Source: Deltaproteobacteria bacterium RIFOXYD12_FULL_55_16
Lineage (GTDB): Bacteria > Desulfobacterota > Desulfobulbia > Desulfobulbales > Desulfurivibrionaceae
Direction of reading: 5' to 3'
NCBI GenBank assembly: GCA_001799255.1
Contig: MGTC01000035.1
Location: forward strand, 1-33,353
Length of the DNA stretch: 33,353 nucleotides
Below the pieces are notes generated by a model. That model worked only from the letters and a program-made list of their open reading frames with translations, searched no databases and was not told the origin of the DNA. This document shows positions 6,660 through 33,163 of this stretch, piece after piece; positions within the stretch are counted from its first letter, which is position 1, and each line of letters opens with the position of its first letter. A program made the translations under genes and the position numbers.

Positions 6660-7162
6660 AAAAGCCGGACTCGCCCCTTATTCCTCTGGCCTGGCTGCTG
6701 GGGGTGGTTGTTCTCGATCAGGCGACCAAGGCTCTGGTTATGGCCAATTTTGCCATGTTTGAGCTGCAGCCCGTTATCCCCGGCCTGTTCAATCTGACCT
6801 TTCTCACCAATGCGGGGGCGGCCTTCGGCATTCTCGCCGGGTTCAAGAGCGTCTGGCGGCAGGTGTTTTTCGTCGGCGTGGCCCTGGCCGCCCTGGGGGT
6901 CATGTTTTTTTCCTATCGCCAGTTATGCCGCCAGGGCAGAATTTTTGCCCACGCCATTGGCCTGATCGCCGGGGGCGCGGCAGGTAATCTCCTTGACCGG
7001 CTCCGCTTTGGCGCGGTGGTTGATTTTCTGGATTTTTACCTTGGCAGCCACCACTGGCCGGCCTTCAATGTGGCGGATTCGGCTATTACCGTGGGGGTGG
7101 GTTTGTTTATTCTGGGTAGTATTTTGTATCCGGACGAGCAGGGGAAGAGTGTTAAGTGCTGA
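6656..7162 (+). CDS. lspA: Lipoprotein signal peptidase (signal peptidase II), probable TTG start overlapping ileS stop
   Basis: DQATKALV, TNAGAAFGIL, GGAAGNLLDRLRFGAVVDFLDFYLGSHHWPAFNVADSAITVGV: canonical LspA catalytic Asp motifs. The 6563 ATG in the ORF track would add a non-homologous N-terminus inside ileS; TTG at 6656 overlaps ileS TGA (TTGA). Confidence 0.93.
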   Translation: MKKPDSPLIPLAWLLGVVVLDQATKALVMANFAMFELQPVIPGLFNLTFLTNAGAAFGILAGFKSVWRQVFFVGVALAALGVMFFSYRQLCRQGRIFAHAIGLIAGGAAGNLLDRLRFGAVVDFLDFYLGSHHWPAFNVADSAITVGVGLFILGSILYPDEQGKSVKC

Positions 7163-7259
7163 GTGCTGAGTGTTGAGTGCTGAGTGCTGAGTGCTGAGTG
7201 TTGAGTGCTGAGTGTTGAGTGCTGAGTGTTGAGTGCTGAGTGTTGAGTGCTGAGTTAAG
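7148..7259. repeat. Heptanucleotide tandem array (AGTGYTG), about 15 units, spanning lspA 3' end and lspA-fabD gap
   Basis: Direct reading: AGTGTTA AGTGCTG AGTGCTG AGTGTTG AGTGCTG x3 AGTGTTG AGTGCTG AGTGTTG AGTGCTG AGTGTTG AGTGCTG AGTGTTG AGTGCTG AGTTAAG, no register slips. Confidence 0.95.
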
Positions 7260-25254: not shown

Positions 25255-26505
25255 ATGCCGCAAAACAAATTCATCTCCATCCCGCATTTTGAAAGTGTAA
25301 AAAATATAGAACACGATAACACCTACTATCAGTTGATTAAAAACTCATCCCAAGAATTCAAGAATGAAATCCACGATATTTTCTTCGGAAAGATTTTTCG
25401 CTACAAATATCATGAGCGTGACAAAAGATATTGTAATCCGATGGGAGTTGAGGCCACGGATGCACAAGTGGACAGTTTATTCAGAATACAGGATGAATTG
25501 GGCATAGAGATTTCTCTTACGATAAACAGCATTGAAACCCCGCACGAACTATTACTTGATGGAAATGTAACCAAAGAATTTATAAAATTTATAAAATCAT
25601 TTTACGACCGAGGTTTGCGAAGCTGCACCATAGCTTCCCCACACTTGATAAGATCAAGATTATTACACGATAATTTCCCAGAGATGCGCTGGAAAAACAC
25701 TGTGAATCATCGGGTTGCCGACGCGCAACAAGTTATGAATTATATTTTTTGCGGCTATGACACTATTTTGCTGGATAGAAGTATCAGCAGGAATTTAAAC
25801 GAGTTAAAACAGATCAGAAAAGCCGTTGATTATTATAACAAAACATATAAGCCGGCCAAAAAAATCCTCACCAGCCTGTTGATCCAGGAAGGCTGTCTCT
25901 ATAGTTGCCCCTTCAAGAAAGAACATGACTCCATGGGGGAATATATCAGCGGGCAGTACTTCGAGACAATAAGCAAATTAACCTGTGACAACTGGAGATT
26001 CAACGAGCCATTTGGTAAATTACCAAGAAATGCTATTGATTTTATCGTTTCAGACAAAGAGACATTTAACGAGATTGCCGAGCTGAATGATATTTTTAAA
26101 TATTCCGGCAGATTCAGTGCTTTTACTTTTCCGCCAGGTGAGGCTAAAAGCAAAAAAGCTTGCTGGCTTTTTGAGCATCAAAAAAAATATAGATTTGATT
26201 ATACTCCCTGTGCCCCGGATGAAATTATCTATGCCAATAATTTTGCTGATATAATTAAGGACAACATCATGCCTTTACACTGGTGGAATTTTGCCTGGGT
26301 TGATGCTGATTATTTCAAAAATGATTATAAGCATAAATTAAAAAGACTAAAAACAATGCCTAACTTTTGGAAAACAGTTAAAGGGCAACGCCTTGCTAAG
26401 ATATTAAAAAATTGCAAAGCCCAATGTTGGGATTGTCATGAGTGCGAAAAAGCCTTCGAAACGCCACACTTTGATTCGGCTTTGCAATTACGTGGTCAGA
26501 AGTGA
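25255..26505 (+). CDS. U32-peptidase-like protein (UbiU/V-like fold), AT-rich gene
   Basis: Strong RBS AGGAGGAAAGT-ATG; FPEMRWKNTVNHRVADAQQVMNYIFCGYDTILLDRSISRN, IQEGCLYSCPFKKEHD and C-terminal CKAQCWDCHECEKAF Cys cluster reminiscent of U32 family. Confidence 0.6.
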   Translation: MPQNKFISIPHFESVKNIEHDNTYYQLIKNSSQEFKNEIHDIFFGKIFRYKYHERDKRYCNPMGVEATDAQVDSLFRIQDELGIEISLTINSIETPHELLLDGNVTKEFIKFIKSFYDRGLRSCTIASPHLIRSRLLHDNFPEMRWKNTVNHRVADAQQVMNYIFCGYDTILLDRSISRNLNELKQIRKAVDYYNKTYKPAKKILTSLLIQEGCLYSCPFKKEHDSMGEYISGQYFETISKLTCDNWRFNEPFGKLPRNAIDFIVSDKETFNEIAELNDIFKYSGRFSAFTFPPGEAKSKKACWLFEHQKKYRFDYTPCAPDEIIYANNFADIIKDNIMPLHWWNFAWVDADYFKNDYKHKLKRLKTMPNFWKTVKGQRLAKILKNCKAQCWDCHECEKAFETPHFDSALQLRGQK

Positions 26506-26709: not shown

Positions 26710-28767
26710 TCATTGACCTGCTCCATTGAGTAAATTGGCTAACTGCGCGGCCAGCGCGGGGTCGAGACGAGATAGCACGGCAAGTTCATTTCGCGCGGAT
26801 TCCAGGTTCCCCAGGAATACATACGCCACCCCCAGGTTAAACCTGACCTCCACCCGCTTCCCCAGCCAATTAAGATTGCGCTCCAGCAATATGACGGTTT
26901 CTTGAAACCTTCTCTCCCGATTCAGGGCAGCTGCCAGGTTTGCGTAAGCCTCGCCGAAATCCGGTTTGAGCCAGACCGCTCTCTCCAGATTTGGCACCGC
27001 CTCGGCATTACGATCGGCAAGGATATAGGAACGGCCAAGATTGTACCAGGCCTCGGAATGATCCGGCTTGATCCTTACCGCCTGCAAAAGAACCACCATG
27101 GCCTCCTCCAGACGATTGGCATCGTTTAAGGCCGCACCCAGGTTATTATACGGCCTGACCTTTGCCGGGGACTTCAGGGCCGTATCCTGCCACAAAGTGA
27201 TGCTGTCTCCCCAGACCTGATTGCGCTGCACTGTCGCCCAACCAAAACCAACGATGATCAAGGCGGCCAGCAGTACCGGGACTGTAGTTCCTGCTCCCGA
27301 AAAAAATCGCTTAAAGAGCAGAAAAAAAGCTGCAGCGCAGGCCAGTACTGCCCCGACCATGGGTAGATACAACCGGTGCTCAAAGATAACATCGGCAATC
27401 GGGATCAGGCTGGACTCAACGGACAGAGTCATGAAGAACCAGAGAATACCGAAGGAGATCAGGCGAAGAAAAGGCTGAAGGCTGAAGGCTGAAGGCTGAA
27501 GGTTGAGGGCTGGGGGCTGAAGGCTGAAGGCTGAGGGCTGAGGGCTGAAGGCTGAGGGCTGAGGGTTGGGGGTTGAGGGCTGAGGGCTGAGGGTTGAGGG
27601 CTGAGGGGAAAGTACTGAGTGCATAGTGCTAAGTGATCGAAACTCAGTGAGTCCACCTCGTCCACCCCGTCCACAAAAGGCTGTGGCCTGAAAGCGACCG
27701 GAGCGGATGAACAAATAAACAGCAAGGGAGAAAAGGGCCGCCAGCAGCAAAAAGGAGAGAAAAACCGGCGGCGTGAAAAAGGTGGTGTAAACCGGGTAAT
27801 CGTAGTCGAGGTTCTGGTTGACCGGCAGAATCAGCAGCCGCAGATAGGTGACAATCACCCGAAGCTGGGTAAACAGATAATGGGGGCGTGATAAATCCGT
27901 CTGCACCCGAAACTGCTCGGTCACGTCCGAAAGCACTTCGCCGGCCGACGAGCCAGTCGCTTCTCCGGTCAGATAGATGCCCAAGGGGACAATGGGGATC
28001 GTCAGCAGGAGCGGCAGCAGGAAGAGCAAGCGCCGCCGCCAGTCCCCCCTGAAAAAGGAGAACTCCAAGAGGAACACGACAAAAGGAAGGGTGACGGACA
28101 ACTCCTTGGTCTTCATCGCCAGCATTGCCGCAAGTACGGAACCCGCAATCAGCAGCCCCTGTTTCCAGACCCCGACCTCAGGCCTTTCAGCTTCAAACTG
28201 CACCCTTACCCACACATACAGCACCACCGCCAGCAGGTAAAACATCGTGGCCATAGAAGCCAGGCGCTGATAGATATAGGTCACAGCCTGGGTCTGCACC
28301 GGGTGCACGACAAAAAGCAGCGCCGCAAACAAGGCCAGCATTGCCGAGCCAGACCCTTCAACCTTGCCTGGCTCCTGGCTCCGGAAGTATGGGGTGAGGA
28401 AGATAAGTTGAACCAGGGAATAGACAAGCAAGGCATTGGCGATATGGATCAACAGGTTAACTAGATGATAGCCGATGACATTCAACCCGCCGAGTTGATA
28501 GTTCAAGGCAAAGGTGAAAAAGCAGACAAAACGGTTGGGGTTGCTTACATTACTGAAATAATTGGCCAACCCGTGCACCGCACCATTATCACGAATATGT
28601 TCCAGATCGTCAAAAATGAACGGTACATGGAAAGTGTTCCCGTAGCAGATGACCGCGAGAATGGCAATCAGCAGAACATGAAACAGCGGCTTGTGCAATA
28701 ATTGCTGCCAGCCGGTTCTTTCCCTTGAGTTTTCAATGCCTGTCGGCAGTGGGGAAGACATAATCAT
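26710..28767 (-). CDS. Multi-TM TPR protein (O-mannosyltransferase/PMT-like topology) with in-frame heptamer-encoded SPQPSAL repeat region; paralog A
   Basis: Many N-terminal TM segments, QTQAVTYIYQRLASMATMFYLLAVVLYVW motif typical of this family, C-terminal TPRs (AWYNLGRSYILADRNAEAVPNLERAVWLKP). Start MIMSSPLPTG at 28767 by alignment to paralog B. Confidence 0.85.
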   Translation of the reverse strand: MIMSSPLPTGIENSRERTGWQQLLHKPLFHVLLIAILAVICYGNTFHVPFIFDDLEHIRDNGAVHGLANYFSNVSNPNRFVCFFTFALNYQLGGLNVIGYHLVNLLIHIANALLVYSLVQLIFLTPYFRSQEPGKVEGSGSAMLALFAALLFVVHPVQTQAVTYIYQRLASMATMFYLLAVVLYVWVRVQFEAERPEVGVWKQGLLIAGSVLAAMLAMKTKELSVTLPFVVFLLEFSFFRGDWRRRLLFLLPLLLTIPIVPLGIYLTGEATGSSAGEVLSDVTEQFRVQTDLSRPHYLFTQLRVIVTYLRLLILPVNQNLDYDYPVYTTFFTPPVFLSFLLLAALFSLAVYLFIRSGRFQATAFCGRGGRGGLTEFRSLSTMHSVLSPQPSTLSPQPSTPNPQPSAFSPQPSAFSLQPPALNLQPSAFSLQPFLRLISFGILWFFMTLSVESSLIPIADVIFEHRLYLPMVGAVLACAAAFFLLFKRFFSGAGTTVPVLLAALIIVGFGWATVQRNQVWGDSITLWQDTALKSPAKVRPYNNLGAALNDANRLEEAMVVLLQAVRIKPDHSEAWYNLGRSYILADRNAEAVPNLERAVWLKPDFGEAYANLAAALNRERRFQETVILLERNLNWLGKRVEVRFNLGVAYVFLGNLESARNELAVLSRLDPALAAQLANLLNGAGQ
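27471..27638. repeat. 24 contiguous heptamers inside paralog A CDS
   Basis: 19 units of RRGGYTG, then AGGGGAA, AGTACTG, AGTGCAT, AGTGCTA, AGTGATC; 168 bp = 56 codons. Confidence 0.95.
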
Positions 28768-28900: not shown

Positions 28901-31081
28901 TCATTGCCCGGCTCTCTCCAGTAACCCGGCCAACTGTTCAGCCAACGCAGGATCGAGACGATATACTACGGCAAGTTCTTTTCGCGCAGACTCCAGGTTC
29001 CCCAAAGATACATACGCCACCCCCAGGTTAAACCGAACTACCACCCGCTCCCCCAACCAATTGAGCTTTTGCTCCAACAGCGTGACGGTTTCCTGAAATC
29101 GCTTTTCCCTGTTCAGGACATATGCCAGGTCGGCATAAGCTTCGCCACAGTCAGGCTTGAGCTGGATCGCTCTCTTCAGGCTCGACACCGCCTCGGCATC
29201 ACGCCCCCCGGTAAGAAGATAAGAATGGCCGAGGTTGTACCAAGCCCACCAGGCCCCAGGATGATCCGGCTTAAGCAGTACCGCTCTTTCCAGACTCAGC
29301 ACCGCTTCGACATTACGCCCGACAAGGAGATAAGAATAGCCGAGGTTGTACCAGGTATCAGGATAATCCGGCTTGATTTTCATCGCCTGGACAAGAACCA
29401 CCAAAGCCTCCTGCGGACGACCGGCATCGCTCAGGGCTGCCCCCAGATTGTTATGCGGCCGAACATTGTCCGGGGACTTCAGAGCCGTATCCCGCCACAA
29501 AGTGATGCTGTCTCCCCAGACCTGATTGCGCTGCACTGTCGCCCAACCAAAACCAACGATGATCAAGGCGGCCAGCAGTACCGGAACTGCAACTACGGTT
29601 CCAGAAAAAAAACGCTTGGAAAGCAAGAAAAAAGCCGCAGCGCAGGCCAATACTGCCCCAACCATGGGTAGATACAGCCGGTGCTCAAAGATAACATCGG
29701 CAATCGGGATCACACTCGACTCAACGGACAGGGTCATGAAGAACCAGAGAATACCGAAGGAGATCAGGCGAAGAAAAGGCTGAGGGTTGAGGGCTGAAGG
29801 CTGAAGGTTGAGGGCTGGGGGCTGAAGGCTGAAGGCTGAGGGCTGAGGGCTGAGGGTTGGGGGCTGAGGGCTGAGGGTTGAGGGCTGAGGGCTGAGGGCT
29901 GAGGGCTGAGGGGAAAGTACTGAGTGCATAGTGCTAAGTGATCGAAACTCAGTGAGTCCACCCCGTCCACCTCGTCCACCCCGTCCACAAAAGGTTGAGG
30001 GTTGAAGACGGCCAGAACGGATGAACAGATAAACAGCCAGGGAGAAAAGGGCCGCCAGCAGCAGGAAAGAGAGAAAGACCGGCGGGGTGAAAAAGGTGGT
30101 ATAAATCGGGTAATCATAGTCGAGGTTCTGGTTGACCGGCAGAATCAGCAGCCGCAGGTAAGTGACAATCACCCGAAATTGGGTGAACAGATAATGAGCG
30201 CGTGATAACTCCGTCTGTACCCGAAACTGCTCGGTCACGTCCGAAAGCACTTCGCCGACCGATTCTCCAGTCGATTCGCCGGTCAGATAGATGCCCACGG
30301 GAACAATGGGGATCGTCAGCAGGAGCGGCAGCAGGAAGAACAGGCGCCGCCGCCAGTCCCCCCTGAAGAAGGAAAACTCCAAGAGGAGCACGACAAAAGG
30401 AAGGGTAACAGAAAATTCCTTGGTCTTCATCGCCAGCAGCGCGGCAAGGACGGAACCCGCAATCAGCAACACCTGTTTCCAGGCCCCGGCCTCAGGCCTT
30501 TTAGCTTCAGCCTCTAGCCTTCCCCACACATACAGCACCACCGCCAGCAAGTAAAACATCGTAGCCAGCGAAGCCAGGCGCTGGTAGATGTAAGTCACCG
30601 CCTGGGTCTGCACCGGGTGCGCGACAAAAAGCAGCGCCGCGAACAGGGCCAGCCTTGCCGAGTCCTGCCCTTGAACCCTGCCTGGCTCCTGACTCCAGAA
30701 GTATGGGGTACGAAAAATAAGCTGAACCAGGGCATAGACGAGCAGGGCATTGGCGATATGGATCAGCAGGTTGACCAGGTGATAGCCGATGACATTCATC
30801 CCGCCCATCTGATAGTTCAGAGCAAAGGTGAAAAAGCAGATAAAGCGGTTAGGATTGCTTACATTGCTGAAATAATTGGCCAGTCCATGCACCGCGCCGT
30901 TATCGCGGATATGCTCCAGATCGTCAAAGATGAACGGCACCTGAAAGGTGTTCCCGTAGCAGATCCCCGCGAGAATGACGATCAGCAGGACATGAAACAG
31001 AGGCTTCTGCAATAATTGCGGCCAGCCGTTTGTTTCTCTTGAACTTTCAGTGCCTGTAGGCAGGGTGAAAGACATAATCAT
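28901..31081 (-). CDS. Multi-TM TPR protein, paralog B, with in-frame heptamer-encoded repeat region
   Basis: Near-identical to paralog A across the TM region; one extra TPR unit and one extra RGG. Confidence 0.85.
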   Translation of the reverse strand: MIMSFTLPTGTESSRETNGWPQLLQKPLFHVLLIVILAGICYGNTFQVPFIFDDLEHIRDNGAVHGLANYFSNVSNPNRFICFFTFALNYQMGGMNVIGYHLVNLLIHIANALLVYALVQLIFRTPYFWSQEPGRVQGQDSARLALFAALLFVAHPVQTQAVTYIYQRLASLATMFYLLAVVLYVWGRLEAEAKRPEAGAWKQVLLIAGSVLAALLAMKTKEFSVTLPFVVLLLEFSFFRGDWRRRLFFLLPLLLTIPIVPVGIYLTGESTGESVGEVLSDVTEQFRVQTELSRAHYLFTQFRVIVTYLRLLILPVNQNLDYDYPIYTTFFTPPVFLSFLLLAALFSLAVYLFIRSGRLQPSTFCGRGGRGGRGGLTEFRSLSTMHSVLSPQPSALSPQPSTLSPQPPTLSPQPSAFSLQPPALNLQPSALNPQPFLRLISFGILWFFMTLSVESSVIPIADVIFEHRLYLPMVGAVLACAAAFFLLSKRFFSGTVVAVPVLLAALIIVGFGWATVQRNQVWGDSITLWRDTALKSPDNVRPHNNLGAALSDAGRPQEALVVLVQAMKIKPDYPDTWYNLGYSYLLVGRNVEAVLSLERAVLLKPDHPGAWWAWYNLGHSYLLTGGRDAEAVSSLKRAIQLKPDCGEAYADLAYVLNREKRFQETVTLLEQKLNWLGERVVVRFNLGVAYVSLGNLESARKELAVVYRLDPALAEQLAGLLERAGQ
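29776..29943. repeat. 24 contiguous heptamers inside paralog B CDS
   Basis: 19 units of RRGGYTG, then AGGGGAA, AGTACTG, AGTGCAT, AGTGCTA, AGTGATC; also exactly 168 bp. Confidence 0.95.
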
Positions 31082-31129: not shown

Positions 31130-31918
31130 TCATTTACGCGGCTTCATCACCAGATAGTAGACAAGGGTTCGCAAGGAGAGCAGGCGATGCAACAGCAGCA
31201 TCATCCGGCCCCTGACCCCGTACTCCCCGGCATAGGCCCGCGCCGTTGCCTGCGCGTCGGCAAGCTGCTCCCGAATTTGCACGCTGCCCTTGGCCGCAGC
31301 ATGAATCCTCATGTCGGCAAGCTCATCTGCTAAAACCGTCGGATTGGAAACTCCGGCAAAGCGCAGCCAGAGATCATAGTCCATATCCAGATGCCGGTTG
31401 ACATCCAGGGTTCCCGCCTTGTCCCACATGCTCCGGTTCCAGAAGGTCGCCTGCTGGGGGACAAAATTCTCGCTCAGCAGCTTAAGCCGCGAGAAACGGC
31501 GTGATTGCCAGTTTTTGTACCAGGCAACCAGATTCATGCTCCGCGCCCCCACAGCGTCGATCATCCCAGCCCGCCCGTAAAGCCAGGCCGGCTCCTCCCG
31601 CGCGAGAAACGGGGCCACCTTGGCCAGGGCTCCGGGCCGCAACACGTCATCGGAGTTGAGCCAACCCAACACCTGACCGCGCGCCCGAGCCATCCCGCAG
31701 TTGACCGCATCCGACTGACCTTGATCTTTTGCAAAACAGAGGACCAGTCGGCCACCGTATTCCTTGTGCAACTCCAGCAACAGTTCCCGTGAACCATCTT
31801 CGGAACCGGGATCCATGACCAGCAGTTCCACCTCCACCCCCCGCTGGTCCAGAACGGATCGTACCGCCGCCTCCAGAAAAGCGGCCTGCTGATAGCAGGG
31901 CATAACGATTGAGATCAT
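31130..31918 (-). CDS. Family 2 glycosyltransferase
   Basis: MISIVMPCYQQAAFLEAAVRSVLDQRGVEVELLVMDPGSEDGSRELL...GWLNSDDVLRPGAL: GT-A fold with DxD-type NSDD. Start M at 31918 is better than 31954. Confidence 0.92.
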   Translation of the reverse strand: MISIVMPCYQQAAFLEAAVRSVLDQRGVEVELLVMDPGSEDGSRELLLELHKEYGGRLVLCFAKDQGQSDAVNCGMARARGQVLGWLNSDDVLRPGALAKVAPFLAREEPAWLYGRAGMIDAVGARSMNLVAWYKNWQSRRFSRLKLLSENFVPQQATFWNRSMWDKAGTLDVNRHLDMDYDLWLRFAGVSNPTVLADELADMRIHAAAKGSVQIREQLADAQATARAYAGEYGVRGRMMLLLHRLLSLRTLVYYLVMKPRK

Positions 31919-31984
31919 GCTGCTTAAATTCCTTTTTCTAACCAAGACTAACAACCAGATGGGTTGCCAACCCCATAGGCAACT

Positions 31985-33163
31985 TCATTCGAGACTGTCT
32001 TTAATGACTGTACTCTCTGTATTCCTCGTTTTCAGAAAAAGGATAGAAAACATGAAGCAATTAAAAACACCTTGAACCGAAATGGTCATCAGGGTCAGGG
32101 CGGGCACGACCTGCCGCATGGTCACATAGATATCGAGGGCGGGATACCCCTGCGAGTACCAGCCCCAGAAGTTGCCAATAAAGATACCCAGCCCGATCAG
32201 CCCCACCCCCGCGAAGGCAAGGAGAAATTTCTCCAGAGAGAATTTTTTAAGACGCTCAATGAACTTCGAGGTGATGGGCAAAAGACCGATGAGATGGGCA
32301 TAAAGATTGATGAAAAGCCCGGCGTAAATCACCTGGATGCCAACGATGGCCATAAAGGCCATGGTCAGCAGCGAATGCACCCCGAGATTGGCGGAGCCGA
32401 TCTGCACCTGCCCCCGAATGAGCAGGACACCCAAGATGAGCGCCGTGGCCACAAGGGCCGTGCCCGGATAGACAAACAGCCAGTTGGGCGCATGCAGCAG
32501 CATGAACCTGAGGTGCCGCCAGCCATCGTGCCAACGGCGCAGGTGCGGCGGGCGATTGCGGCCATCCTTATACAGGATGACGGGAACTTCCGTCATCCGC
32601 AGACCATTCAGCCTGCTCTTGATGACCATTTCTGAGGCCCACTCCATCCCGGTCGTCACCAGACCGATGGCCATCACCTTGTCGCGGCGAAAGGCGCGTA
32701 GGCCACAATGAAAATCACTGGTGGCGATATTGAAGAAAAGTCTGCCGACAAAGGTCAGCAACGGGTTGCCAAGCAATTGGTTCAAGGCGGGCATGGCGCC
32801 GGGCATGATCTTGCCCTTGAGCCTTGTCCCCATACAGATATCATAGCCTTCCTCAAGTTTCTCCAGCATGGGGTAGGCTTCATCGAAATGGTAACTGTCA
32901 TCACAGTCGCCCATAATGATAAACTTACCCTTGGCTTGCTGAATTCCGTATTGCAGGGCCGCGCCATACCCGCGCCTTGGACAGTGAACAACCCGCGCCC
33001 CCAGAGAGGCGGCAATTTTCTGGCTGCCGTCTGTCGAGCCATTATCGGAAATCAGCACCTCTCCATCGATCAGGTGTGTGGCAAGCAGCTCCTTCGCCCT
33101 GCCAATACAGACCGGCAGAGTAAGCGCCTCATTGAGGCAGGGCATAACGATGGATAGTTTCAT
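31985..33163 (-). CDS. Family 2 glycosyltransferase with C-terminal TM helices (DPM1/DPS-like)
   Basis: MKLSIVMPCLNEALTLPVCIGRAKELL...LISDNGSTDGSQKIAASLGARVVHCPRRGYGAALQYGI...IMGDCDDSYHFDE; TM segments near C-terminus. Confidence 0.92.
   Translation of the reverse strand: MKLSIVMPCLNEALTLPVCIGRAKELLATHLIDGEVLISDNGSTDGSQKIAASLGARVVHCPRRGYGAALQYGIQQAKGKFIIMGDCDDSYHFDEAYPMLEKLEEGYDICMGTRLKGKIMPGAMPALNQLLGNPLLTFVGRLFFNIATSDFHCGLRAFRRDKVMAIGLVTTGMEWASEMVIKSRLNGLRMTEVPVILYKDGRNRPPHLRRWHDGWRHLRFMLLHAPNWLFVYPGTALVATALILGVLLIRGQVQIGSANLGVHSLLTMAFMAIVGIQVIYAGLFINLYAHLIGLLPITSKFIERLKKFSLEKFLLAFAGVGLIGLGIFIGNFWGWYSQGYPALDIYVTMRQVVPALTLMTISVQGVFNCFMFSILFLKTRNTESTVIKDSLE

Follow-up and report, generated by a model that had tools for sequence, protein, structure and literature searches.

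The heptanucleotide array carried by gene A of the window, i.e., the whole stretch of 33,353 nucleotides analysed here from contig MGTC01000035.1 of Deltaproteobacteria bacterium RIFOXYD12_FULL_55_16, is probably a tolerated, frame-constrained repeat insertion in the loop between membrane helices TM8 and TM9, with occasional off states. According to this reading, one local member of a dispersed period-7 family that is found mostly between genes would have become part of the disordered TM8-TM9 loop, which would itself be dispensable, the reading frame being the sole strong constraint. As the coding-strand units present no stop triplet in any frame, any unit number would yield the same SPQPSAL linker, and selection would retain only those unit numbers for which the final membrane helices and the TPRs stay in frame. 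A change by one or two units, in either direction, would occasionally switch the gene off, as in one homolog, and such a change may revert. Tolerance of the insertion would stem from the disorder of the loop and its position inside the cell. We infer that units change by slippage, that the array is tolerated rather than selected as a linker, and that switching is both infrequent and reversible.

The array and the protein that carries it

Table 1. Features of the window discussed in the text.
Feature	Position	Strand	Remarks
Intergenic array, CTCAGCA/CTCAACA units	7147..7255	-	lspA-fabD spacer
Gene A, 11-TM membrane protein with C-terminal TPR, 694 aa	26710..28794	-	
TM9, residues 440-463	27406..27477	-	AlphaFold; directly after array loop
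Clean array of gene A, 19 YYCARCM heptamers	27473..27605	-	Cut into units on coding strand
Degenerate units, about 5, period-7	27606..27638	-	Coding-strand 5' side of clean array
GTGGACGRG nine-base repeat, <3 copies	27651..27675	-	Belongs to composite loop insert
TM8, residues 342-364	27703..27771	-	AlphaFold; directly before array loop
Gene B, tandem paralog of A, 726 aa	28901..31081	-	85% identical to A
Array of gene B, 19 clean units	29778..29910	-	Unit-variant order unlike A
GT2 glycosyltransferase	31130..31954	-	Upstream, same strand run; profile match below curated cut-offs
GT2 akin to polyprenyl/dolichyl-phosphate sugar synthases (AglJ-like)	31985..33163	-	E 1.5e-32, below curated cut-off

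The first-pass annotation had described 168 bp of 24 uninterrupted heptamers (Table 1). Their extent and register hold, while their purity does not: beside the clean units stand the degenerate ones (which read TTAGCAC, TATGCAC, TCAGTAC and TTTCCCC), TRF reports a period-7 array at 27473-27607 with 19.3 copies and 88% matches, and the longest perfect 7-periodic run reaches 32 bp in array A and 34 bp in array B. Both arrays are interrupted by variants, and thus lack the pure units of neuO-type contingency genes. On the coding strand, the unit types CTCAGCC, TTCAGCC and CTCAACC encode SPQPSAL-type peptide repeats, and the second overlapping ORF with the same peptide, reported earlier at 27459-27725, is indeed present. 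The composite insert is ordered as the nine-base GTGGACGRG repeat (at 29956-29988 in paralog B, according to TRF), the degenerate units and the clean heptamers. On the opposite strand, runs of GGGCTGA/GGGTTGA give rise to G-quadruplex motifs at 27520-27605 and 29778-29910.

Arrays A and B are equal in length, and both genes are in the ON frame, as had been stated. An ungapped alignment of the two arrays shows nine mismatches, none of which leaves the variant alphabet of the repeat family; alternatively, the arrays can be aligned with two compensating two-unit shifts and four substitutions. Under either alignment, the turnover looks like unit exchange, and the net length of the arrays has been kept since the duplication, over which most flanking windows diverged by 7-25%.

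The length of gene A is counted from its first ATG, but translation may begin instead at an ATG at 28767 (MIMSS), like in paralog B. In the AlphaFold model (39 homologs; mean pLDDT 83), residues 365-439 form a disordered loop (pLDDT mostly <50) that coincides with the composite insert. The order of the helices and the Pfam TPRs match the plan of TMTC proteins, i.e., 11 TM helices followed by a TPR domain. Since the human TMTC proteins have 11 TM helices, a cytoplasmic TM8-TM9 loop and luminal TPRs (PMC7801869), the array loop is predicted by analogy to be cytoplasmic, with the TPRs on the outer side. The first outer loop carries acidic residues, D63 being invariant and D62 nearly invariant in the 39 homologs. 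Because Foldseek results for the full model were dominated by the TPRs, the membrane part was modelled separately; its top matches were PglB, ArnT, OST and Pmt4, with probabilities of 0.72-0.99 but E-values of at least 0.1. Neither DUF1736 nor PMT of Pfam matched (E up to 10 for the full proteins, up to 1 for the membrane part), a sequence search of the PDB with a profile of the membrane part returned no match, and PF13231 (PMT_2) was not found in the genome itself. With such weak E-values and no relevant Pfam match, the fold matches make a TMTC-like GT-C membership of gene A a good lead that falls short of proof. The first-pass annotation had spoken of a surface-glycosylation-type gene; the gene is plausibly related to glycosylation, given the GT-C-like fold matches and the adjoining GT2 genes, and its product may act as a glycosyltransferase. 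The AglJ-like GT2 could plausibly make the donor for a GT-C enzyme. Elsewhere in the window, on the plus strand, a 416-aa ORF (25255-26505) with cysteine motifs has a GC content of about 42%, unlike its surroundings, and matches no NCBIfam model. Contamination of the contig was considered and rejected, ileS being single and 91-93% identical to that of congeners, which places the contig within the genus.

A dispersed period-7 family

Three successive YYCARCM units match 106 times in the genome, against no match for a reversed-pattern control, while the 124-kb contig holds 21 period-7 tracts, compared to one tract each for periods 4, 5, 8, 10 and 11, and 1-2 once period 13 is included. These controls indicate that the array is not a product of chance. 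Among the 21 tracts, only those of genes A and B are intragenic; the others are intergenic or at gene edges, and one is a C/N run. The array of the lspA-fabD spacer is missing from the corresponding spacer in 10 congeners, and several of these have no more than short seeds such as AGTGAAAAGTGA. Together with the dispersed copies, this absence points to a repeat family with species-level expansions. Dispersed heptameric repeats are also known in Cyanobacteria, where they are termed STRR, and the family described here resembles them in having many copies of one heptamer class, mostly in intergenic positions.

Reading frame across the array and in homologous loops

The first-pass annotation held that the array is open in every frame of the coding strand and that a change of one unit would shift everything downstream, which simulated unit changes bear out: the additions of one or two units and the loss of one unit lead to a stop after residues 461, 449 and 442, respectively, instead of 694, in each case only beyond the array and with the loss of TM9-TM11 and all TPRs. 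Together with a Nitrospirota homolog pair described below, these simulations indicate that the gene can be turned off through the number of its units. When A is compared to B, dN/dS is about 0.17 upstream of the array (0.064/0.372), 0.19 in the membrane part after it (0.047/0.245) and 0.20 in the downstream TPR part (0.162/0.800), so that purifying selection acts on the downstream sequence as read in the annotated frame. Homologs devoid of the array continue across the site; in the Desulfobulbaceae UBA5628 homolog (L058, L145), for instance, a 12-residue loop occupies this site and both flanks align unbroken. The coding sequence was thus rightly taken to span the array, and gene A, by comparison, appears to be translated through it.

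To survey the TM8-TM9 loop, the conserved segments before and after it were matched separately, and the initial search motifs both precede the loop, which means that the frame was not preselected. Most homologs have a short loop at the array site. Among the 211 loops sampled (from Desulfobulbales, Geobacter-type bacteria, Nitrospirota and others), 27 distinct ones carry heptamer tracts, while the control periods 4, 5, 8, 10, 11 and 13 yielded 0, 0, 4, 0, 1 and 1 loops, respectively. The heptamers of the homologs, found in at least two phyla, are unlike each other (TTCACGA, TATCAGC, GTTCACT, GGAGTGC, CCTCAGT and others). All but one of the 27 loops are in frame (binomial p 7e-12 against an expectation of 2/3 out of frame), with the caveat that the loops are partly non-independent, many coming from paralog-rich Nitrospirota genomes. 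The OFF share among species and paralogs is therefore 1/27, far from the substantial share of neuO-type genes, in sequences that are consensuses of species representatives and MAGs, where minority OFF variants would be hidden. Out-of-frame cases are not significantly in excess in heptamer loops compared to other loops (1/23 vs. 2/136; Fisher p 0.38).

The single out-of-frame case belongs to the Nitrospirota genome G036, in which gene 1 of L121 stops shortly after the loop, its remainder being intact in another frame, while the paralog L274 shares the composite insert and is in frame. The two loops are set apart by an in-frame insertion of 42 bp and by a single GTTCACT unit, neither more nor less, the out-of-frame gene having the extra one; all remaining indels within the well-aligned coding part have lengths divisible by three. 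At the sequence level, L121 and L274 are a natural ON/OFF pair, one heptamer apart. Three further candidates were discarded: L277 (G036:C214), proposed as a second heptamer OFF state, has a frameshift and a lost TM8 end beside its TATCAGC tract; L233 is a distant, repeat-free homolog whose frame is broken; and one pairing in L108 had been falsely joined to the following gene. A third paralog, C (L056), on the same contig as A and B, has the landmark ACTGAGTTYCGATCAC in common with them but 3 units instead of 23; between C and A/B, the part that precedes the units measures 61 or 70 nt (1 mod 3) on one side and 66 nt (0 mod 3) on the other, which compensates. The unit number hence underwent a change by a non-multiple of three during evolution, with the overall frame restored.

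Across 49 homologous genes, all the real period-7 tracts (41/41) fall within five cytoplasmic loops, i.e., TM2-3 (9 tracts), TM4-5 (16), TM6-7 (2), TM8-9 (12) and TM10-11 (2), with loop boundaries padded by six residues, sidedness set by analogy to TMTC and one hit to a run of N set aside. No such tract was found in the outer loops, the TM helices and the TPR part of these 49 genes, which make up 79% of the codons. Inverted heptamer pairs are frequent within a single cytoplasmic loop (TM4-5, TM2-3, TM8-9), as in L089, L091, L092, L096 and L257, and an mRNA hairpin at the loop codons is therefore possible. Other interspersed repeats, of the CCCCTTTGACAAAGGGG, CCTGCCTACCGGACAGGCAGG and SPSPHRGEGRGEG types, occur in the TM8-TM9 loop of L121 (1460-1560), L110, L090, L093 and L101, which indicates that this loop accepts various repeat elements. 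In G038, a Nitrospirota groundwater MAG (genome of L128), the pre-loop segment has 35 matches, corresponding to about 35 gene copies; five of these copies have an identical 78-nt heptamer loop, which suggests gene conversion or recent duplication.

Alternative readings and known heptamer systems

The first-pass annotation had proposed a candidate three-state slipped-strand switch. In the strong form of this proposal, a selected contingency locus similar to neuO, frequent mispairing would leave a subpopulation without the full-length glycosyltransferase-like protein. The mechanics of this proposal stand: 7 equals 1 mod 3, the frames are open, the truncation occurs before the last helices and the TPRs, one homolog is OFF with one heptamer more than its in-frame paralog and an otherwise intact downstream part, and frameshifting heptanucleotide repeats are known in ORFs, such as neuO (PMC13001214) and hmw1A of PittAA (PMC2651432). 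Frequent switching is not supported: 26 of the 27 heptamer loops are in frame, whereas neuO is ON in about a third of genomes, the units are interrupted by variants, which limits the longest perfect run to 32 bp, and A and B have arrays of equal length despite a 7-25% difference in most flanking windows. Taken together, the bias towards in-frame loops, the impurity of the units and the identical lengths of the paralog arrays disfavour frequent three-state switching, and we consider a selected locus of this kind unlikely. An assembly artefact or a pseudogene, i.e., a mis-assembled array length or a decayed gene, is highly improbable: the source genome is a draft in 90 pieces, and tandem paralogs with arrays beyond short-read length would be hard to assemble, but both genes have intact reading frames of 694 and 726 codons, and dN/dS stays close to 0.2 before and after the array.

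It is also conceivable, yet in our view quite unlikely, that the repeat is functional as DNA, RNA or linker, be it through a template-strand G-quadruplex, an mRNA structure pacing membrane insertion or a proline-rich linker for a partner. Canonical G4 motifs on the plus (template) strand have 7 starting points in array A and 10 in array B, Xanthomonas and Nostoc are known to carry heptameric G4 repeats (PMC4692102), and the tracts of the homologs are confined to cytoplasmic loops, with inverted pairs in several of them. Yet the sister array in the lspA-fabD spacer is devoid of canonical G4 motifs, Rfam has no match anywhere in the window, and the heptamers vary in sequence among homologs and are missing from most, which is more in keeping with tolerance than with a specific function. 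The recurrence of heptamers in loops across phyla could nevertheless mean a useful linker or DNA/RNA repeat, and not mere tolerance. A frame-constrained insertion tolerated by the TM8-TM9 loop thus remains our preferred reading.

Heptamer repeats inside genes have mostly been described as switches of pathogens. In the present case, a switch-like geometry is found in uncultured environmental bacteria; it occurs in a single membrane-protein family, spans at least two phyla and occupies sites defined by membrane topology. Moreover, the natural ON/OFF pair allows mutation supply (slippage) to be told from selection on frame, and contingency-type loci can be concretely tested in free-living anaerobes. 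More broadly, it is possible, though doubtful, that bacterial TMTC-like GT-C/TPR glycosyltransferases offer, in their cytoplasmic loops, a cross-phylum niche for unrelated in-frame heptamer families, which would turn the whole protein family into slow, evolvable frame switches of surface glycosylation. In the literature searched, from which subscription journals were mostly absent, the recurrent placement of heptamers in the cytoplasmic loops of one membrane-protein family is not described. Heptanucleotide ORF switches and dispersed heptameric families are already known. Rickettsia palindromic elements are likewise a repeat family tolerated in frame within protein genes, but they are palindromic, while the array of the window is a direct heptamer repeat.

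Among the ORF switches, neuO, the capsule O-acetyltransferase gene of E. coli K1, carries an AAGACTC repeat and is OFF in 65.6% of genomes (PMC13001214). As in gene A, the heptanucleotide array lies inside the coding sequence and the unit number modulo 3 sets full-length translation (PMC13001214), but the units of neuO are at the 5' end, whereas those of gene A are impure and sit in a mid-protein membrane loop of a family whose heptamer loops are nearly all in frame. In H. influenzae, hmw1A of PittAA has (AATTTTG)14 and an HI1369 homolog has (AACAACC)n; both are heptanucleotide tracts of frameshifting length in ORFs (PMC2651432), yet reported as single tracts in adhesin/receptor genes and not as copies of a dispersed family. 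Such families include the GGGNATC repeats of Xanthomonas and Nostoc (PMC4692102), the TAACTGA repeats of Beggiatoaceae (PMC4679880) and the four-unit heptanucleotide elements of Geobacter metallireducens (PMC2700814). They share with ours genome-wide, mainly intergenic arrays of one family that occasionally enter ORFs, and differ in their unit sequences. In genome G000, most heptamer arrays are found on one contig (G000:C35:56000-96000; L064-L066), many of them in the gaps between the genes of a cluster for polysaccharide and multihaem cytochromes, and several form inverted pairs (59880-/60058+, 83184-/83308+, 95370-/95509+).
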